Source: Epilithonimonas caeni DSM 17710
Lineage (GTDB): Bacteria; Bacteroidota; Bacteroidia; Flavobacteriales; Weeksellaceae
Assembly: GCF_000426465.1 (NCBI RefSeq)
Contig: NZ_AUFK01000014.1
Span: 310,001 to 374,000 of the forward strand
Reading direction: 5' to 3'
Length of the DNA: 64,000 nucleotides
Shown here: piece after piece, positions 1 to 8,528 of the stretch
How the letters are laid out: each line of letters begins with the position of its first letter
Position numbering within the stretch: position 1 is the first letter of the stretch
Made by a program: the position numbers and the translations under genes
The notes under the pieces: model-generated
Database searches by the model: none
Told to the model about the DNA's origin: nothing
The model's input: only the letters and a program-made list of their open reading frames with translations

Positions 1-627
1 TTTAGGAATATTTAAAGTTTTATCCTTAATGAAAAAATAAATCGTTTTCAGAATCCAAATCCCTAAAATAATCCAATAAATTAAAGTGATTCCGGGAACA
101 AAATTAGGAAGTGAATCGAACCAGCTGAACTCATTTTCTACAAACCAATTGAAAGCCCGAGGCGTTTTTATCCAATACAACATTGGAAAAACAGTTGCAG
201 AATAAATGGCGATACCGTCCCAAAATTTTGAAAAACCTTTCTTCTCGAATCTCGCATACAATCGCATAAATCCATATTGCTGACGAACAAAATGAAAGAC
301 CGCAACCAAAGCCAAAACCGACCAAAAGAACAAACTCCCGAATTGATAAAAAATCAAACCGAGAATCAGACTAACTGCAGGAATTCCCAAATACAAAAGC
401 TTCCTTCTTCGGAATTCTTCTCTGATAAAATAAGTTTTGAATAAAGTCGAATAAACGTGCGCAACATCCACAAAAACAATAAGAATCAACCATGTATAGA
501 ATGAATAATGATTTTCAAGATTCTGAATTTGTCCCTGAAACAAAACTATAATTGTCAATACCAAAAATGGTGGAGACAAGATGAATCGCCAATCGGTTTT
601 CGCATTATGAATCCAAGGCTGTTTCAT
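1..627 (-). CDS. Multi-pass membrane protein, unknown, 3' end cut by window edge
   Basis: An open frame starting with ATG at 627 reads leftward for 209 codons and leaves the window with no stop, so the C-terminus is missing. The protein starts MKQPWIHNAKTDWRFILSPP and has about five hydrophobic helices rich in F, W, Y, I and L, with short basic loops containing EEFRRRK and RQQYGFMRLYARFEKK. I recognise no catalytic motif and do not know the family. It follows the FAD oxidoreductase gene on the same strand by 46 bases, so the two are probably co-transcribed. That link is the only hint to its role. Confidence 0.8.
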   Translation of the reverse strand, partial: MKQPWIHNAKTDWRFILSPPFLVLTIIVLFQGQIQNLENHYSFYTWLILIVFVDVAHVYSTLFKTYFIREEFRRRKLLYLGIPAVSLILGLIFYQFGSLFFWSVLALVAVFHFVRQQYGFMRLYARFEKKGFSKFWDGIAIYSATVFPMLYWIKTPRAFNWFVENEFSWFDSLPNFVPGITLIYWIILGIWILKTIYFFIKDKTLNIPK

Positions 628-673: not shown

Positions 674-2269
674 TCATATTCCAATCATTTCTTTTGCAGC
701 TCTGATTCCCTGATGAAAAGCTTCCTCAAAAATAGAAATTCCTGATAAATCGGTATGAGCAAAGAAAATTTTGTTATCAACATTTTGTTTTGCTAATTGT
801 TTTTCTACTCCAAAAATGAAATCCGGAACAGGCGAAATCATCCCGTGTCCCAATTTATGAAACTGAATATCAATTATAAAATCTTCGATTTCCGGATGTG
901 CGACTTTCAAATCATCAAGAACCAGATTTTTCAATTCATCTGCCTTCAGATTGTATAATTGTCTTCGTGCTTTTTTACAATTATCTGTAGAAAAACTTCT
1001 GTAATGTGTGATGACCTTCTCTCCAACAATTTGATTAAGGTTCTGATGTTGGTCATTGATGTAACCTAAACCTTCCGTTCCAAAAATCACATTATCCCAA
1101 GCCAGTTCTTCTGCACCACCAAATTCATTTTTCAATGTTAAAGTGGATAATAACCAAGGAACATAATTGAAATTTTTCAGTTTTCTGCTTTTGAAAATAT
1201 ATTGATTGACGAATTGCGGCGTTGCAAAAAGAACTTTCTCAGCAATAATTTTTTTTGAGATTTTCGATTGATTATCAAAAACTAAAACCTCAACATTATC
1301 TTTATCCGAATTGACATCAAAAACAAGATGATGTTTCAAATGTTTATTCTCAACAAATTCTGAAAGATGTTTTGCCAATCTTGCGTTTCCTTCCGGCCAG
1401 GTGAAAACCTGATCTTGACGATTAGTCGCCCAATTATTTTTTCTTCCTGCAAAATAATGGATTCCAGCCCAAGCGGAAACGTATTTCAAACCTAAACCAT
1501 AATCATCTTTGCAGGAATAATCCAATAACCAAAGTAATTCTTGAGATTGAAAATGATTATTAACAAGCCAATCAAGAAAAGTTATTTGGTCGAGGTTTTT
1601 GGCTTCGTCACTGGATTTTGAAACCGGAATATCAAACCAATATTTTCCAGAATTATCTTTCTTGATTCGGAATTCGTCCATTAATTTAAAAAAACCTGTA
1701 ATTTCTTCTTTAGCATTAGAGGAAATTCCGTTTTGAGGAATCAAATCATTTTGCCATTCATTCTTGAAAAATAAGCGTTCTTGTTTAGGAAAAGTCAGTT
1801 GCTCATCATCTAAAACAGGCAACCCATTTTCGTCATCGCCGAGATAGATTTTACAATCTTTCAGAAACTCAATCAATTCCAAATCTTCTTTATTCGGAAT
1901 CGGAAGATAATGTGCACCGATAGGAAATTTTGAAAACCGGTTTTCTCCGTTGGAAGCATTTCCTCCGAGATGATTCTCCATCTCGACTAAAAGAAAATCA
2001 TTCTCATTATTATTTTTCAAATACCGACAAGCCGAAAGTCCGGAAATTCCACTTCCAACAATCAGAAATTTTGTTTTGATTTCTTCTGTCGGTTTCGGAA
2101 AATCTTTTGCCCAAAGTCTATGCCCCAAAACAGAATTGGTTCCTGTGATTTTGAGTAAAAAAGATTTTGATTTCTGTTTGCAATATTGTAGAAATGGCAA
2201 CATCAATCCTGCCCAAAAGATAGTCTTGAGAAAAGATTTCCGGGAAAATTGATTGGTAGAAGTTGGCAA
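674..2269 (-). CDS. Exported FAD-dependent amine oxidase-like oxidoreductase
   Basis: Residues 68-100 hold a dinucleotide-binding fold: GSGISG at 72-77 and an acidic residue at the end of strand 2 (E96), followed by LGGNA. This is the layout of flavin amine oxidases and phytoene-desaturase relatives, which oxidise amines or C-C bonds using FAD. The N-terminus has a twin-arginine-like motif (R10-K11 in SRKSFLK), a hydrophobic stretch and C30, so Tat export, perhaps as a lipoprotein, is likely. The start is TTG: an in-frame stop lies two codons upstream and the next ATG would remove the export signal. It sits downstream of a polyamine-type operon, so an amine substrate is plausible but unproven. 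Confidence 0.8.
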   Translation of the reverse strand: MPTSTNQFSRKSFLKTIFWAGLMLPFLQYCKQKSKSFLLKITGTNSVLGHRLWAKDFPKPTEEIKTKFLIVGSGISGLSACRYLKNNNENDFLLVEMENHLGGNASNGENRFSKFPIGAHYLPIPNKEDLELIEFLKDCKIYLGDDENGLPVLDDEQLTFPKQERLFFKNEWQNDLIPQNGISSNAKEEITGFFKLMDEFRIKKDNSGKYWFDIPVSKSSDEAKNLDQITFLDWLVNNHFQSQELLWLLDYSCKDDYGLGLKYVSAWAGIHYFAGRKNNWATNRQDQVFTWPEGNARLAKHLSEFVENKHLKHHLVFDVNSDKDNVEVLVFDNQSKISKKIIAEKVLFATPQFVNQYIFKSRKLKNFNYVPWLLSTLTLKNEFGGAEELAWDNVIFGTEGLGYINDQHQNLNQIVGEKVITHYRSFSTDNCKKARRQLYNLKADELKNLVLDDLKVAHPEIEDFIIDIQFHKLGHGMISPVPDFIFGVEKQLAKQNVDNKIFFAHTDLSGISIFEEAFHQGIRAAKEMIGI

Positions 2270-2335
2270 AATTTAATTATAATTTTGAAACGCTTTCGTA
2301 GATATTCTTCTATATTTTTAAAATCGGAATCTGCA

Positions 2336-2683
2336 TTAGTTAATATTTCTATTTGCCTCATTTGCATATTTTTTCAAACGTTCGTCACGACTCATTTTCC
2401 ACTCAGAAAAAGGAATTGTGTTTCCATTCTTTATGTCTTCCTCTGCTTTTTTCAACGATTCCAAAATTTCTTCCTTGGTTTCGGTTCTGTAAACCGGCTC
2501 CATTACTCTGGCAATAGCTAGCAACTCTTCGGAAGTAAATCTTTTGTCTTTCATTTTTTTGAAAAAGGTTGGCTTTTTAATCCCTGTTTTCTCAATAATG
2601 TAAGAGATTTTGAAAGGAGATTCTTTCAGAATTAGATCTATACTGTTCTGGATTTCTATATATTTTTCGATTTCAGCTATCAT
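2336..2683 (-). CDS. Small HTH regulator, antitoxin-like, no toxin partner seen
   Basis: This is a 115-residue protein. Residues about 20-60 form a Cro/CI-type helix-turn-helix (ISYIIEKTGIKKPTFFKKMK). The tail EEILESLKKAEEDIKNG is typical of antitoxins of HigA or RelB style that add a toxin-binding helix. No RelE, HigB or ParE gene lies beside it: the 66 bases to the next gene hold no usable frame. It lies between the spermidine-synthase-like gene and the FAD oxidoreductase gene. A perfect palindrome in its own promoter suggests autorepression. It could be an orphan antitoxin or a local regulator of the neighbouring genes. Confidence 0.75.
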   Translation of the reverse strand: MIAEIEKYIEIQNSIDLILKESPFKISYIIEKTGIKKPTFFKKMKDKRFTSEELLAIARVMEPVYRTETKEEILESLKKAEEDIKNGNTIPFSEWKMSRDERLKKYANEANRNIN

Positions 2684-2741: not shown

Positions 2742-4256
2742 TTACTGGACTTTGCCCCATTCTTCATCAAAATATCTTACCAGAATCTGATTATCCAAAC
2801 GATTCACTTCCAGATTATTTGCTTTCATATCCTTGCTGAAATAAGACATTTGTTTAAAATTGTAATCATAAAATTTCAAATCCGGAAGCCTTCTTATAAT
2901 TTTGTTATCAATAGGCTGAAAAGAGGCGAGACAAAATCCCCATTCTCCAAAACTAGGAACATAAGAGTGATAGGCTGTTGTAAATGGAAAAATCTGATTA
3001 ATGGTTTTCTCGATACACCAAAAAGATTTCGGTGCGAAATAAGGCGATGTGGTCTGAACGACTATTTTAGTGTCGTTTGTGGTTACTTTCTCCAGTTCTT
3101 TATAAAACTGTAGCGAATATAATTTTCCTAAGCTATAGTTCGAAGGGTCTGGAAAATCGATGATAATGATATCATATTTCTTCTTGTTCCCTTTTACCCA
3201 AATGTAAGCGTCTTTATTAATCACTTCAACTTTAGGACTAGAAAATGATTGATGATTCAGCCTTTTCATTGTTTCATTATCTCGGAAAAAATTGGTCATT
3301 TCTCCATCCAAATCAACCAAAGTAATATTCTTTACATTTTTATATTTCAAAATTTCTCGAACCGCAAAACCATCGCCTCCGCCCAGAACCAAAACATTGG
3401 AAATAGTCTTGGCCATAGACATCGCCGGATGAACCAAAGCTTCGTGATAACGGTATTCGTCAGCAGAAGAAAACTGAAGATTATTATTAAGATAAAGTCG
3501 GAAATCCTGATTATTCCTAGTAAAAACAATTCTCTGGTAAGGTGAATTATTTGCGTAGATAATATTCTCTCCGTACATTTTCTCTTCGGAAAAGGTCAAA
3601 AGTCTATCCGAAAAAATAAAAAGTGCCAATAAACTTAGAAAGGCAAAAATCGATTTAATTTTAAGTCCGATTGGATTTTTCAATTCTCTTTCCAGATAAA
3701 ACGAAAGGAAAATCGCAATGGAAATATTAATCAAACCAAAAAAAAGCGGCGTTCTTATAATTCCTAAACTTGGAATCAGAACCAGTGGAAAAAGAATGGA
3801 TGCCAGCAAAGCACCAATGTAATCAAACGCAAAAACATTAGAAACCAAATCTTTGAAAGCGACTTTATCCTTGAGAATATTCATCAGTAATGGAATTTCC
3901 AACCCAACTAAACATCCTGTCAGAAATACAAAAAGATATAAAACAGGCTCAAAATGATGAACCGTATTGAATAAATAGAATAAAACTACTGAGCTGATTC
4001 CTCCGATAACACCGACAAGAATTTCGATTTCAACGAATTTATTTAGCAAATCTTTATGAATAAATTTTGCCAAGTAAGAACCCACGCCCATCGAAAAAAG
4101 ATAAACGCCGATAATGAAAGAGAATTGTTTTACAGAATCTCCCAAAAGATAACTTGCCAAAGCGCCTGCAACCAATTCATAAATCAATCCGCAAGTCGCG
4201 ATGACAAATACCGAAAAAAGTAAAAGCAGTTCAAACGAAATCCGTTTTTTATCCAT
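2742..4256 (-). CDS. Membrane-anchored spermidine synthase-like aminopropyltransferase
   Basis: This 504-residue fusion has about seven hydrophobic helices in residues 8-215 and a polyamine aminopropyltransferase domain in about 230-504. The second half carries the family motifs: SPYQRIV (Q241), YRYHEALVHP near 268-277, the nucleotide loop LGGGDG at 291-296, D316 after strand 2 and DFPDPS at 367-372. Soluble spermidine synthases transfer an aminopropyl group from decarboxylated S-adenosylmethionine to putrescine. The membrane anchor suggests an acceptor in or near the inner membrane, which is inference. It starts with ATG and overlaps the DUF350 gene by 8 bases. The speD-like gene in the same operon would supply the donor. 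Confidence 0.87.
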   Translation of the reverse strand: MDKKRISFELLLLFSVFVIATCGLIYELVAGALASYLLGDSVKQFSFIIGVYLFSMGVGSYLAKFIHKDLLNKFVEIEILVGVIGGISSVVLFYLFNTVHHFEPVLYLFVFLTGCLVGLEIPLLMNILKDKVAFKDLVSNVFAFDYIGALLASILFPLVLIPSLGIIRTPLFFGLINISIAIFLSFYLERELKNPIGLKIKSIFAFLSLLALFIFSDRLLTFSEEKMYGENIIYANNSPYQRIVFTRNNQDFRLYLNNNLQFSSADEYRYHEALVHPAMSMAKTISNVLVLGGGDGFAVREILKYKNVKNITLVDLDGEMTNFFRDNETMKRLNHQSFSSPKVEVINKDAYIWVKGNKKKYDIIIIDFPDPSNYSLGKLYSLQFYKELEKVTTNDTKIVVQTTSPYFAPKSFWCIEKTINQIFPFTTAYHSYVPSFGEWGFCLASFQPIDNKIIRRLPDLKFYDYNFKQMSYFSKDMKANNLEVNRLDNQILVRYFDEEWGKVQ

Positions 4257-4464
4257 GAATCGCTGCGCTGATAATAATAGAAATCCCGATAATAAACGCG
4301 CCTAAAATAATTGCTAATGCGGTGTTATTATTTTTTGAAATCTCGTGCCAGGTCTTTTCCGGAGTTAATTTTTCAATAATGACATAGCAAATCAACAAAA
4401 TGGCAATTCCCAAAAAAGAATATAATATCGAATTAAGTATTGGTAAATAATTAAAATCTCCCAT
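4249..4464 (-). CDS. DUF350 (YjfL-like) two-helix membrane protein
   Basis: This protein has 71 residues if it starts at ATG 4464. The frame can be opened at TTG 4470, but ATG MGDFNYLPIL is the better choice. Two hydrophobic helices (about 9-30 and 48-68) flank a short loop KLTPEKTWHEI, and the chain ends SAAIHG, as is usual in DUF350. The function of DUF350 is not known. Family members commonly co-occur with spermidine-synthase-like, SpeD-like and DUF4178 genes, as here. The gene overlaps the downstream aminopropyltransferase-like gene, so translation is probably coupled and the two may form a membrane complex. Confidence 0.85.
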   Translation of the reverse strand: MGDFNYLPILNSILYSFLGIAILLICYVIIEKLTPEKTWHEISKNNNTALAIILGAFIIGISIIISAAIHG

Positions 4465-4482
4465 AATCAATGTTTTTAAAAT

Positions 4483-4677
4483 TTATTTGTGATAATATCT
4501 GTAAACCGAAGTTCCGTGTGAGCGATATCTGGTTGCTCCATCTCTGTACTTTTCCATTTTTGCACAATCGCAAAACTGGTTTCCCGTGTAAGTCAAATAC
4601 AGAAACCAACCTAGAAAAAATATTCCTAAAGACAGCAATAGCTTATTATTTCTAATATAATTAATCATCTTTTCCAT
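4483..4677 (-). CDS. Small single-span membrane protein of the speD operon
   Basis: This is a 64-residue protein with one transmembrane helix (about 12-30, LLLSLGIFFLGWFLYLTY) and a short tail containing CDC and many Y, R and H residues (RYRSHGTSVYRYYHK). Its ATG overlaps the stop of the DUF4178 gene by one base, and it ends 18 bases before the DUF350 start, so it is fully embedded in the operon. I do not recognise a family. Its operon position resembles that of other small YjfM-like partners of DUF350, but similarity is not shown. Confidence 0.7.
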   Translation of the reverse strand: MEKMINYIRNNKLLLSLGIFFLGWFLYLTYTGNQFCDCAKMEKYRDGATRYRSHGTSVYRYYHK

Positions 4678-6128
4678 CAGTTTGTATACTCGTTAAAAGG
4701 AGAATAGTTACTGTTTTTCCATTTCTCCTTATCAAAAAGATATTTTCCCCAATAATTCAGAAGAACCAACGCCACCATTATTCCTATAATAATGAAGTAA
4801 TTCCAAAAACTTACAGGTCTCCAAAAAGCCTGAATATCGAATGCCGGATTCAGCGTATCCGTATCAGGTGATGTTGCTGAAAAATTTGGATTTTTGAGTT
4901 TGAATTCTTTAGCCTTTTCTAACTCAGAATAGATTATGGAATCATTAGTTTGAAGATTAGATAAATTATAAGAAATCTTTTCACCCGTCGCCAGAGTTGT
5001 TACATCCACGAATCCAAACTCATCGTAAATAAAAGATTTTGTTCCGTCAGGAGAATAGAATGTTTCTCCACTTGGCTGTTCAAAGCCTTGTTTTTGCGCA
5101 TTGATGGCGAAATGATATTTTCCGGGCGCAACACCACAAAAATTAAATTCTTTGTTCTTATCTCCTTCTGACCAGCTTTCTCCGCTTTCGTAGCCGTGAT
5201 ATTGTTCAATGTCTTGAGACGTGTATTCTATCTCATTCGTTTTTTCATTGACGAGACTCAATTCTACGTTGGCCCAGGAATTATCAACATTGGAATAGAG
5301 TTTTACATTAAGTGGAGCAGAAGCGCCACGCAAATCAAACGACTTCGAAATCAATTCTTTATTCCTTACAGAATCAAATCTGATTCTGTCACTGAAAACC
5401 TCATAATTAGTTCTTGAAACTGTGTTATAAAGCTGTAAAAGACTCATCAACAATGCAACAATTGCTAAAATATTTATCAATTGTCTGATGTTAATATAAT
5501 AAGGCTGAACAATCCCTATTCCGGAATAATTCGGCATATGACTCGGTTTGAATTGTCGCTTGATTTCGCTCTTCGGAATATGTTTTCCCCAAAGAAAAGT
5601 TTTTTCTGTACCTATTTGTTCTATAGAAACCATTTCGGTCCCGTTCACAAATTCTTTATAATTGGCCAGGGAAAATTTAATTTTATCTTCGAAGAAACCG
5701 GTTGCAGAATCAATATTATTGGGAGTGGATTCGTACCACCTATAATTTTTCCCATTGAATTCTGCGTGAAATTTGAACTCCTTTTTCGGCATTTCTTTCG
5801 GTTGAAGAAAAACCCAATGTCCACTGCTTTCACTCAGGAATGCGTCATTTTTATCTTTGTCTTTCAGATAATATTCTCTCCAAAAAACAGAACTTCCATA
5901 TTTGCGAACAACAATCGCAACGACTTGATATTCCGTTCCGTCAATTTTACCTTTTTGACCAATCTCCAAAACTACATTCTCCGTTGGTTTTTTGACAGTT
6001 TTTAAAATCGTTCCGGTCTCAGGATTAATTAAATTAGAGCAAGATCTACAAATATATTGTTCAATCTCGATATCGATTGTGAGAATATTTTCGGTTTTAC
6101 AACTCGGGCAAACGTAGGTCTTCATCAT
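4677..6128 (-). CDS. DUF4178 protein with N-terminal zinc ribbon and two membrane helices
   Basis: This 483-residue protein begins with a CPSC...CRSC zinc ribbon (residues about 8-31). A beta-rich DUF4178-type domain follows (about 45-200, with EYQVVAIVVRKYGSSVFWREYYL), then a helix near 215-235, a large predicted extracytoplasmic region and a last helix near 440-460. DUF4178 has no assigned activity; comparative genomics links it to SpeD/spermidine-synthase-like and DUF350 genes and to PspA-like envelope systems. It overlaps speD by four bases upstream and the 64-residue gene by one base downstream. The start may be 6128 or the adjacent ATG at 6125. Confidence 0.83.
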   Translation of the reverse strand: MMKTYVCPSCKTENILTIDIEIEQYICRSCSNLINPETGTILKTVKKPTENVVLEIGQKGKIDGTEYQVVAIVVRKYGSSVFWREYYLKDKDKNDAFLSESSGHWVFLQPKEMPKKEFKFHAEFNGKNYRWYESTPNNIDSATGFFEDKIKFSLANYKEFVNGTEMVSIEQIGTEKTFLWGKHIPKSEIKRQFKPSHMPNYSGIGIVQPYYINIRQLINILAIVALLMSLLQLYNTVSRTNYEVFSDRIRFDSVRNKELISKSFDLRGASAPLNVKLYSNVDNSWANVELSLVNEKTNEIEYTSQDIEQYHGYESGESWSEGDKNKEFNFCGVAPGKYHFAINAQKQGFEQPSGETFYSPDGTKSFIYDEFGFVDVTTLATGEKISYNLSNLQTNDSIIYSELEKAKEFKLKNPNFSATSPDTDTLNPAFDIQAFWRPVSFWNYFIIIGIMVALVLLNYWGKYLFDKEKWKNSNYSPFNEYTN

Positions 6129-6493
6129 CTCAGGATTTTGTGTTCTTTGATGATTTCTGCCTCGAAGTAAGTTAGCAATTTCGAGGTGATTTTTTCAACT
6201 TTCTCTGTATTATCATTATAATAATTACAAAGCAACAAATCTAAAGTCAGTTGTTGGAACTCCGGCCAGGTATGGATACAAAGATGTGATTCTTTCAGAA
6301 TAATTGCTGAAGTAAAACTATCATTATCAAAAATATGAAACGTTTCTCCAACAACTTCTGTATCACATTCTGCCAAAAGTTTTTTGGCGTAATCTAAATA
6401 GGAATAATAATTTGTCAGTAAATCTGGATTTTCAACCTTCAGAGTCAATAGAACGTGTAATCCTTCCTGATAAATTTCTAAAGTTTTCATCAT
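6125..6493 (-). CDS. speD: S-adenosylmethionine decarboxylase-like (SpeD) proenzyme
   Basis: The protein has 122 residues, the size of the bacterial class 1b SpeD. The self-cleavage site ESHLCIHTWPE is present: E68-S69 marks the bond whose serine becomes the pyruvoyl group. H74 lies five residues on and C89 twenty residues on, matching the Ser63/His68/Cys83 spacing of the Thermotoga enzyme as I recall it. It should convert S-adenosylmethionine to its decarboxylated form, the aminopropyl donor. It is first in a tightly overlapping operon, so the donor is probably used by the downstream membrane aminopropyltransferase. Some SpeD homologues have become arginine or ornithine decarboxylases, which the sequence alone does not exclude. 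Confidence 0.88.
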   Translation of the reverse strand: MMKTLEIYQEGLHVLLTLKVENPDLLTNYYSYLDYAKKLLAECDTEVVGETFHIFDNDSFTSAIILKESHLCIHTWPEFQQLTLDLLLCNYYNDNTEKVEKITSKLLTYFEAEIIKEHKILR

Positions 6494-6585: not shown

Positions 6586-7503
6586 TTATTTCTTCGGCAG
6601 AAAAACCTCAGCCAACATACATCTGGCACTTCCGCCACCGTTGGTTTCTATCACTTCCAAATCGGAATAGATAATTTCACAATATTTTTCGATTGCGGAA
6701 ACTTGTTTAGGCTTCAAAGATCTGTAAGCACTTTGACTCATTACCAGGAATTTTTCTCCAAAATGATTCTGGACCTGAAGCATATTTCCAGCAAAGTTCT
6801 GCATTTGGTCTTCGGAGATTTCTATCAGCTCTTTACCAGAGCCCTTAATCGTTTCAATGACTTTTTCCCTTTCCAGTTCGTCATCTATACAATCCAGACA
6901 AATCACTACAAACTTGTCAGCTACACACATCATCACATTGGTATGATAAATAGGCAACCTTTCTTCTCCGGCAGTCTGATAAGAATGAAAAACCACAGGC
7001 TTGAATCCAAACTCACTACAGAATTTTCTGAATAGATCCTCATCCAATCTGAGCGAAACCGAACCATAAGCGATCTTGTTATCGTGGTCGAAAATCATAC
7101 TTCCTGTTCCTTCCAGGAATTTATTGTCTTTTTCGGTTTCAGAATAATCGATGATTTCGTTGATTTTGAATTGTTCCCCGATTTGGTCAAGAATGTCATT
7201 TCGTCTTTCCAAACGTCTGTTTTTGGCAAACATCGGGTAGAGAACCACTTTTCCATCTCTGTGAAAACTAACCCAGTTATTCGGGAAAATGGAGTCTGGT
7301 GTTTTGGGGTCAAGCGTATCTTTTATGGTGATGACGTTGATGCCTTTTGCTCTCAGTTTCTCAACAAAGGTATTGAATTCCTTCAAAGCTTCTCCTTGAA
7401 CATTGCCTTCCTGTTGAACCTGAAAATAATTATTAACAGCCGTTTGCTTGTTGAAACCGAAAGCAACAGGTTCTATCATTAAAACTGTATCTGTAGTTTG
7501 CAT
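6586..7503 (-). CDS. ctlX: Amidinotransferase-fold hydrolase, CtlX-type (citrulline utilization)
   Basis: The 305-residue protein starts MQTTDTVLMIEPVAFGFN and ends with the nucleophile region NGGGSARCMLAEVF (C295), with H near 189 (YHTNVMM) and PNNWVSFH near 75. This is the five-bladed propeller fold shared by arginine deiminase, DDAH and the CtlX group. CtlX is associated with citrulline or arginine breakdown; the precise reaction here is not certain. It ends in a strong terminator. The next gene upstream encodes a second member of the same fold, 110 bases away on the same strand, suggesting a two-gene arginine-derivative pathway. Confidence 0.8.
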   Translation of the reverse strand: MQTTDTVLMIEPVAFGFNKQTAVNNYFQVQQEGNVQGEALKEFNTFVEKLRAKGINVITIKDTLDPKTPDSIFPNNWVSFHRDGKVVLYPMFAKNRRLERRNDILDQIGEQFKINEIIDYSETEKDNKFLEGTGSMIFDHDNKIAYGSVSLRLDEDLFRKFCSEFGFKPVVFHSYQTAGEERLPIYHTNVMMCVADKFVVICLDCIDDELEREKVIETIKGSGKELIEISEDQMQNFAGNMLQVQNHFGEKFLVMSQSAYRSLKPKQVSAIEKYCEIIYSDLEVIETNGGGSARCMLAEVFLPKK

Positions 7504-7613
7504 ATTATCGAACTAAATTTAAAATTTAATTTATCTCGCAGATTTTTCAGATTTAGTAAATCTCCCAAACTAAAATTTTGCAAAATTTGCTGAATCAGCG
7601 AGAAATATCTGAC

Positions 7614-8528
7614 TCATTCTCTCACCAACGGCAAAGTCGAACATCTCAACAATCCTCCCATTTTGGAAATTTCACGATAAGGGATTTCTTCCACTGTAAT
7701 ACCCCACTCGTCTCTGAGATGATGATTGAGTCTTGTGAAGGCTTTATCAGAAACCACTATATCCGGAGCAATTGAGAAGATATTCGGAACCATATCGAAC
7801 ATTTCTCTATCATTGATCTCGAAACAATTTTCTTCTCCAAAAATATCAACCAACAATTGATAATCAGACTCATCTACAAATCCATTTTTGTAAATGATAC
7901 ATTTGTCATTCCCAACAATATTGAATGTACAATCCAAATGAAGGATACCTTCGTAGGGCTTCGTATCGTTTTTTCTTAAATCAAGGTCGATGATCCTTTT
8001 CTTCGGGAAATATTCTTTCAGAATTTCGATGGCATATTCATTGGTTCTTGCCGTCTTCAGATTTCTATAATCCGGGCTGTAGCTGGTTCCGATGAAGAGA
8101 AATCCGTTCCAGACAATCACGTCTCCACCTTCTATATGCGCCGTTTCCGGAAGATTGATAATATTCCTCCAGGACACTTTATCGATGATATGCCTGTAAG
8201 CTTCCTGTTCGTCCGCTCTATCCGGAATGATATTCGAAATTATCATTTTGTCTTCTATCACGAACGCGACGTCTCTTGCAAAAACCTGGTTGTAATCTTT
8301 GATGATTTTCGGTCGGAAAACTTCAACATCATACTTTTTCAGAACCTTTTCGAATTCTGTCATTTCAGAGATAATATCTTGTTCCTTTGGGTAGATATTA
8401 TTCTCGATCGTATGATAAGATTTAGCATCATAACTTTCTTCCAGAGTCGGAACCGGACCATTAGATTTCGGTTGTCCAAGAACTACGGATTTCAGTCTTC
8501 CAGTCTCATTTTTGATATTTAGTTTCAT
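7614..8528 (-). CDS. Amidinotransferase / DDAH-like hydrolase
   Basis: This is a 304-residue member of the amidinotransferase superfamily. Visible signatures are the acidic site ARDVAFV, HIEGGDVIVW, the catalytic histidine region GILHLDCTFN, and the cysteine near the C-terminus in GGLLRCSTLPLVRE (C296). Such enzymes cut or transfer the amidino group of arginine-like substrates. RCSTLPL is the usual ending of DDAH- and glycine-amidinotransferase-like members. The substrate cannot be read from sequence. It lies directly upstream of the CtlX-like gene and the two are probably transcribed together. Confidence 0.8.
   Translation of the reverse strand: MKLNIKNETGRLKSVVLGQPKSNGPVPTLEESYDAKSYHTIENNIYPKEQDIISEMTEFEKVLKKYDVEVFRPKIIKDYNQVFARDVAFVIEDKMIISNIIPDRADEQEAYRHIIDKVSWRNIINLPETAHIEGGDVIVWNGFLFIGTSYSPDYRNLKTARTNEYAIEILKEYFPKKRIIDLDLRKNDTKPYEGILHLDCTFNIVGNDKCIIYKNGFVDESDYQLLVDIFGEENCFEINDREMFDMVPNIFSIAPDIVVSDKAFTRLNHHLRDEWGITVEEIPYREISKMGGLLRCSTLPLVRE

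Follow-up and report, generated by a model that had tools for sequence, protein, structure and literature searches.

The 64,000-nucleotide stretch of the Epilithonimonas caeni DSM 17710 genome analysed here (contig NZ_AUFK01000014.1, positions 310,001 to 374,000; hereafter the window) encodes on its minus strand a fusion of a seven-transmembrane (7-TM) region with a spermidine-synthase-like domain, together with p64, a 64-residue membrane protein that ends in lysine. When 88 loci encoding this fusion were compared (85 distinct synthase matches), a protein with a C-terminal lysine was found at 83 of them. Because its C-terminal lysine is invariant, p64 appears to be the best acceptor candidate, and the fusion may catalyse aminopropylation of the side chain of that lysine with decarboxylated S-adenosylmethionine (dcSAM) as donor, a proposal to which we give about an even chance of being correct. 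The genes that carry this argument are listed below by position in the window.

6125-6493, minus strand: speD, pyruvoyl S-adenosylmethionine decarboxylase (PF02675, 63 bits, cut-off 25)
4677-6128, minus strand: DUF4178 protein with a Zn-ribbon-like start (PF13785, 45.3 bits, cut-off 25)
4483-4677, minus strand: p64, 64 residues, one transmembrane segment, tail ..YRYYHK-COOH; proposed aminopropyl acceptor
4486-4488, minus strand: codon of the p64 C-terminal lysine (AAA), with the stop codon at 4483-4485
4249-4464, minus strand: half-length DUF350 protein, 71 residues, two transmembrane segments (PF03994, 53.7 bits, cut-off 26)
2742-4256, minus strand: 7-TM/spermidine-synthase-like fusion, 504 residues (NF002956, 637 bits); proposed protein aminopropyltransferase

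A five-gene core includes the fusion

The initial annotation had described these five genes as an overlapping operon, and all five lie at the coordinates it gave. Neighbours overlap by 4 nucleotides (speD and DUF4178), 1 nucleotide (DUF4178 and p64) and 8 nucleotides (DUF350 and the fusion), while p64 and DUF350 are separated by 18 nucleotides. The zinc ribbon that had been assigned to the DUF4178 protein fared less well, as DUF4178 itself scores above its cut-off but the Zn-ribbon-like start reaches 18.2 bits, under its own cut-off of 28.1. By a crude hydropathy count, DUF4178 homologues have about two transmembrane segments. The DUF350 match spans model positions 6-66 of 133 (scanned from 4470), making the protein half-length, and is the single match to this family in the 4.1 Mb genome. 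No family scored above its cut-off for p64.

A C-terminal lysine is retained in the partner protein

The median dN/dS of p64 is 0.137 (ungapped comparisons of 16 sequences; 42 usable of 120 pairs, those outside dS 0.2-2 being dropped) and its start overlaps the DUF4178 stop; therefore p64 is a real gene under purifying selection. All 32 distinct homologues end HK. The position of p64 between DUF4178 and DUF350 is taken by a lipoprotein in a second large clade, type B, which combines the fusion with an 8-TM-size DUF350 protein, a short DUF4178 protein and the lipoprotein. Type-B lipoproteins end Gly-Lys in 15/15 of a first set and in 7/7 from loci L126-128 and L136-139.

To score the slot between the DUF4178 and DUF350 genes, open reading frames (ORFs) of at least 35 residues whose last residue is lysine were counted, with the antisense strand of the same slots as control. 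A sense ORF ending in lysine was present in 72/76 slots, compared with 6/76 on the antisense strand; counted by ORF, the lysine end occurred in 78/164 sense and 6/163 antisense frames. The 72 positive slots end HK (48), GK (22) or VK (2) and hold 59 distinct tails over the last 30 residues. An earlier rule that took the longest ORF in the slot gave a lysine end in 64 of the 73 slots holding an ORF. Under a strict hydropathy filter, 53/55 slots with a hydrophobic ORF ended in lysine, but this filter lost true p64 genes, and the plain last-residue rule was adopted instead, together with its antisense control.

The four slots that the rule missed all have lysine tails too. L087 and L105 have no separate small gene, and the DUF4178 protein itself ends in a tail plus lysine (..GSHK and ..GFGK, respectively); in L097 p64 is present, and L134 carries two DUF4178 genes, the first of which is followed by a lysine-ending ORF. 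Twelve loci have no such slot, and in seven of these (L093, L106, L120, L147, L148, L121 and L130) a lysine-ending tail protein is encoded at another place in the unit. These last seven of the 83 positive loci were chosen by eye.

The lysine tail occurs across Bacteroidota, Pseudomonadota and Gemmatimonadota and in both large clades of the fusion tree, which was built from a hand-picked 45 of 82 sequence rows. Distant plasmid tails include ..SHK and ..THK in Novosphingobium, ..GSHK in Burkholderia, ..HGK in Gemmatirosa, ..SGK in Ensifer and Alteromonas, and ..RVK in Tritonibacter. A 48-residue 'hypothetical protein' annotated by PGAP ends ..GPSHK in a plasmid region of 64% GC where 2/17 complete annotated genes end in lysine, and an Alteromonas protein of 510 residues ends ..SSGK in a region where 1/19 genes do. 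Eighteen tail representatives sort into eight groups that show no blastp similarity to one another (E 1e-3).

The fused enzyme keeps its presumed catalytic residues and is predicted to face the periplasm

Conservation was examined in 82 distinct fusion rows, from which ORFs of at most 450 or at least 600 residues (run-together frames from GC-rich loci), identical rows and plasmid loci not added by hand were left out. Residues D349, D367, D370 and Y270 are kept in 82/82, and D295 and D315 are Asp in 79 and Glu in 3; we take these six to be donor-binding or catalytic. By comparison, the Asp of the QTDNPW motif in Bacillus subtilis SpeE (1iy9) is replaced in all 82 by Thr (56), Gly (22), Cys (3) or Val (1), and never by an acid. 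The facing residue is also non-acidic in three other alignments (7xif, Gly; 6bq2, Ala and 1uir, Thr, the last two with a possible one-position shift in register). Replacement of this Asp fits an acceptor unlike putrescine, and alone it proves nothing.

The seven helices that the initial annotation had counted are matched by seven hydropathy peaks, centred on residues 20, 54, 88, 115, 158, 179 and 207. Lysine and arginine are concentrated in the N-terminus and the even loops, and predicted inner loops carry more of them than outer loops in 82/82 fusions (on average 11.0 in 62 inner positions against 1.2 in 31 outer ones). With the N-terminus inside, as the positive-inside pattern indicates, a chain of seven helices ends on the opposite face, so that the prediction puts the catalytic domain outside the cytoplasm, where the lipoprotein tails and a flavin adenine dinucleotide (FAD) amine-oxidase-like enzyme encoded downstream would also lie.

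A defence system was considered and rejected. PADLOC run on eight proteins gave no more than weak matches, of the synthase domain to mad2 at 50.8 bits and of DUF350 to a SLATT-type model at 17.5 bits, which we take as fold-level similarity.

Donor supply and other polyamine genes

The proenzyme site that had been called intact in SpeD is indeed present, with ESH, HTWPE and the following Cys all found in the window protein; among 72 distinct SpeD rows, ESH is kept in 72, HT[WFY]PE in 71 and the Cys in 67. TIGR03330 scores SpeD at 59.1 bits, below its cut-off of 75.65. Genome-wide there is one match to PF02675, one to PF01564 (the spermidine-synthase-like domain) and none to PF03738 (GSP_synth), in agreement with the earlier statement that a soluble acceptor enzyme or ATP-grasp ligase is absent, other ATP-grasp families lying outside this search. 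Two matches to the Orn/Arg-decarboxylase family were judged, by length and sequence, to be diaminopimelate and arginine decarboxylases. The genome also encodes a deoxyhypusine-synthase homologue that could make homospermidine, so that another route to a triamine is possible.

SpeD was found in 12/12 further genomes with the fusion. It is encoded at the locus in four, and elsewhere in eight (G005, G066, G087, G148, G162, G172, G681 and G694). In two genomes (G005:C1:1726192-1727340 and G087:C33:6825-8030), away from the fusion operon, SpeD and a second synthase match share or adjoin one frame, possibly a SpeD-synthase fusion that serves ordinary polyamine synthesis.

A model for aminopropylation of the lysine tail

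What the DNA shows directly is which genes are present, that the catalytic motifs are kept, that p64 has an invariant lysine at its end and that the tail proteins begin with hydrophobic or lipoprotein-like segments; the acceptor, the membrane side, the donor transport and the oxidation step are, all four, what we infer. In the proposed model SpeD would make dcSAM in the cytoplasm, and the 7-TM region would bring it to the fused synthase-like domain, probably helped by the small membrane proteins DUF350 and DUF4178. This domain, predicted to face the periplasm, would move at least one aminopropyl group to the side-chain amine of the last lysine of p64, not to free putrescine; the lysine side chain presents a four-carbon primary amine, like half of putrescine. 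The FAD oxidase and a downstream 6-TM protein would then process the modified tail. In a bolder form, which we hold less likely than not, this would be a periplasmic system of protein aminopropylation, where dcSAM would be exported, the membrane enzyme would extend the last lysine of a dedicated anchored tail protein with a propylamine chain, and the exported FAD oxidase may generate a reactive group for envelope cross-linking. Such chemistry, if true, would mirror that of the ATP-grasp systems, in which spermidine is joined to a C-terminal carboxylate.

Several observations weigh against this model. No lysine-tail gene was found in five of the 88 loci (L089, L099, L135, L100 and the synthase fragment L124). 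A C-terminal lysine is also not rare in itself, with 48/253 background ORFs ending in this residue and the neighbouring gene ctlX ending in it in 27/27 cases, sampled from close relatives only. As the tail proteins are short, the missing similarity among them says little for independent origins. For the enzyme, the helix count and the membrane side are predictions from hydropathy and charge, and the inner and outer loops were defined on the same fusion family in which they were scored. Alignment columns separating HK-tail from GK-tail enzymes exist, and a reading of these as specificity residues was rejected because tail type tracks the phylogeny. The single SpeD of G005 and of G087 is found in a frame of 442-446 residues beside or with a second synthase match, and this SpeD may serve another enzyme. 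Finally, we know of no precedent for export of dcSAM.

Most components are membrane-located, and this would also suit a fusion that aminopropylates a lipid or small envelope molecule, with the p64-type proteins in a structural or regulatory role and their terminal lysine binding, for example, DUF4178, DUF350 or an anionic surface. A conserved C-terminus can serve as a docking motif, and the full fusion occurs without a lysine tail in L089, L099, L135 and L100. However, a last residue shared by dissimilar tails is more easily explained by chemistry than by docking to a single conserved partner. Nothing here points to a lipid acceptor or speaks directly against one, and we consider this reading less likely than modification of the lysine tail. 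Another arrangement would keep the lysine tail as substrate and place the fused domain in the cytoplasm, acting before or without export, with the 7-TM part a mere anchor. It would suit the cytoplasmic origin of dcSAM, and the Escherichia coli ligases with Gly-Gly-tailed partners (described below) would need cytoplasmic ATP despite the hydrophobic, export-like starts of those partners, as judged by eye; the positive-inside pattern with seven helices nevertheless makes it improbable.

The NCBIfam name, by contrast, implies an ordinary polyamine synthase that is anchored in the membrane and whose product would be spermidine or some other free polyamine. The fusion exceeds the cut-off of the 'polyamine aminopropyltransferase' equivalog NF002956 (637 bits over 472, residues 8-503 of 504), its catalytic residues are intact and the arginine-decarboxylase-like gene is a possible source of diamine. 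On the other hand, TIGR00417 (speE) scores it at 140.4 bits, below the cut-off of 249.55, and the deoxyhypusine-synthase homologue could supply homospermidine. Moreover, in passages of PMC12803844, bacterial homologues of a membrane-aminopropyltransferase fusion were experimentally uninvolved in spermidine or spermine synthesis; failure to complement a spermidine synthase mutant is likewise reported there for such homologues. We consider a free polyamine product unlikely. Fusions of this type carry annotations as polyamine synthases though that 2025 paper states, in the same passages, that bacterial relatives make neither compound.

For the preferred reading, aminopropylation of the p64 tail, the invariant lysine of the partner narrows the question of the acceptor to a single mass-spectrometry experiment. 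If true, it would add a type of protein modification, enzymatic lysine aminopropylation from dcSAM, and would give the FAD oxidase and the 6-TM protein a pathway.

Gly-Gly tails accompany ligases

In L089, L099 and L135 the fusion is divergent from genes for a GSP-synthase-like ligase, SpeD and a protein ending ..YGG, with neither DUF350 nor a lysine tail nearby. The L099 ligase matches PF03738 at 233.5 bits, and those of L089 and L135 were assigned by our own profile. The ..YGG proteins of L099 and L135 have no Pfam match. A DUF1190 label for the ..YGG proteins was dropped, as PF06693 was found in 0/296 genomes of the phylum and two of the three proteins were scanned without a Pfam match.

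In E. coli, YjfC and YgiC carry the RefSeq product name peptide-spermidine ligase, and their neighbours YjfM and YgiB end ..HWGG and ..SMGG, respectively. Both these systems and the locus described here would pair polyamine chemistry acting on peptides with an adjacent protein of distinctive C-terminus; in addition, YjfL of E. coli is a DUF350 protein and YjfJ belongs to the PspA family. They differ in that E. coli pairs an ATP-grasp ligase with a Gly-Gly end, whereas an aminopropyltransferase is paired here with a lysine end: p64 ends YYHK and not in the Gly-Gly that we read, from YjfM and YgiB, as typical of a ligase-type partner. Across the five Gly-Gly cases, a small sample, the carboxylate-activating enzyme appears to go with a Gly-Gly tail and the amine-needing enzyme with a lysine tail. 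If true, two sets of polyamine operons would share one logic, that of decorated C-terminal tails at the envelope. Pederick et al. 2023 (Biochemistry 62:899) reportedly studied the E. coli peptide-spermidine ligase systems experimentally.

Relation to described gene sets

Gene sets that join S-adenosylmethionine decarboxylase to a membrane-spermidine synthase fusion were reportedly treated by Li et al. 2019 (Biochem J 476:2579). These sets reportedly share with the present locus a class 1b SpeD, a fusion with an N-terminal membrane part and a C-terminal spermidine-synthase-like part, and a nearby DUF350 gene. The locus here differs in its half-length DUF350 and in the presence of p64, the Zn-ribbon DUF4178 protein, the FAD oxidase and the 6-TM protein. 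Polyamine-type chains on protein lysines also occur in silaffins and hypusine, which are known from eukaryotes (hypusine also from archaea) and depend on another enzyme set.

Aminopropylation of substrates other than putrescine has already been discussed in passages of PMC11237479, citing Li et al. 2019, and of PMC12803844. The idea of another acceptor is thus largely in print, and the initial annotation, which proposed aminopropyl transfer at the membrane, repeats a published open question. Its proposal is partly supported, by the SpeD/transferase pair, the kept residues and the membrane location, but p64 as candidate acceptor and the predicted outside placement of the domain were missed. New here are the p64 C-terminal lysine as candidate acceptor, two added operon members and a predicted topology that brings the parts to one side of the membrane. 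The proposal of a terminal-lysine acceptor was not found in the literature passages covered, which do not include the text of Li et al. 2019. Literature searches for a lysine acceptor at a C-terminus, or for a fused spermidine synthase in the periplasm, listed nothing relevant. In the main text of PMC11237479, lysine, FAD, amine oxidase and periplasm are absent as word starts.

The closest described set, in passages of PMC11237479, is group 2 of the CesT/Tir-PspA operons, which shares the fusion of a 7-TM region with spermidine synthase, DUF350, DUF4178 and a membrane-anchored protein. Here, by contrast, PspA is missing (no PF04012 match in the genome; CesT/Tir was not searched genome-wide), DUF350 has two rather than eight transmembrane segments, p64 stands in place of the lipoprotein, and the FAD and 6-TM genes are added. 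A type-B-like gene set with PspA has likewise been described there, and a PspA gene lies nearby in 10 of the 88 loci. Fusion operons with DUF4247 are also named in that paper.

The conserved unit extends beyond five genes

Downstream of the fusion the window encodes three further features.

2203-2683, minus strand: toxin-antitoxin-like pair (antitoxin-like 2336-2683, short toxin-like frame 2203-2367), inside the unit and not a member of it
674-2269, minus strand: FAD amine-oxidase-like protein (PF01593, 28.5 bits, cut-off 19.8), operon member
1-627, minus strand: 6-TM His-rich protein, last in the unit; the window edge cuts the gene, which continues in the genome (L154)

Gene order was compared across the 88 loci, as the initial annotation had envisaged, with a gene counted as labelled when recognised by profiles made from these loci, so that unlabelled genes may intervene. 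The order speD-DUF4178-DUF350-fusion was kept in 46 loci, a sign that the arrangement is no coincidence, and a six-gene order continuing with the FAD and 6-TM genes in 38. In 50 loci the first labelled gene beyond the fusion was the FAD gene, bearing out the earlier guess that it belongs with these genes, and the 6-TM gene followed it in 40. In many Chryseobacterium loci and further genomes of the same order, the FAD gene is predicted to begin before the fusion gene has ended. The conserved unit is thus bigger than five genes and includes both the FAD amine-oxidase-like and the 6-TM genes.

The window FAD protein carries a motif resembling a twin-arginine translocation (Tat) signal, SRKSFLK, followed by a Cys (FLQYC). 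Fifty-one homologue rows were collected, and nine without a Rossmann pattern were dropped (L118, L119, L120, L125, L131, L133, L146, L147 and L148). A twin Arg/Lys motif was found in 42/42 of those tested and the motif with a following Cys in 41/42, which we read as probable Tat export with a lipid anchor. Relatives of the 6-TM protein, whose gene adjoins the FAD gene, have no Pfam or NCBIfam match; His motifs in examples of this family are HVYSTLF, HFxRQQYGF, SHGIPY and THYxLDGFIW.

Distribution of the fusion

The fusion was present in 54/395 genomes of the order (E 1e-60) and in 4/7 listed genomes of the genus. In the phylum, a type-B query found it in 28/392 genomes (E 1e-50), and 33/148 genomes gave a match at E 1e-20, of which eight were near full length and the rest covered the synthase domain or were partial. 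Sixteen plasmid records matched, and in 12 the match covered 80% or more of the query. This patchy distribution is as would be expected of an accessory trait. Among 25 loci, the closest named relative is Epilithonimonas hispanica (L062), whose fusion protein is 96% identical.

Two loci depart from the usual arrangement. L104 has two fusion genes, one with the 6-TM and FAD genes and the other convergent with DUF350, a lipoprotein, DUF4178, a channel-like gene, speD, PspA and CesT/Tir. L124, on a Rhodovulum plasmid, is a 236-residue piece of the synthase domain without the membrane part or the usual neighbours.

Neighbouring genes

Upstream of speD, ctlX and an arginine-deiminase-like gene occupy 6586-8528. 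This pair was not found in the more distant loci compared and is kept in Epilithonimonas and Chryseobacterium loci; it is probably a mere neighbour.

The toxin-antitoxin-like pair interrupts the unit between the fusion and FAD genes. The antitoxin-like protein gives a weak match to a RelN-antitoxin model (19.4 bits, cut-off 70), and in one set of loci its relatives were found only in the window, L070 and L072, occupying the same place in the latter two. The toxin-like frame encodes 54 residues, shorter than the 100-residue frame that follows the antitoxin in L070.

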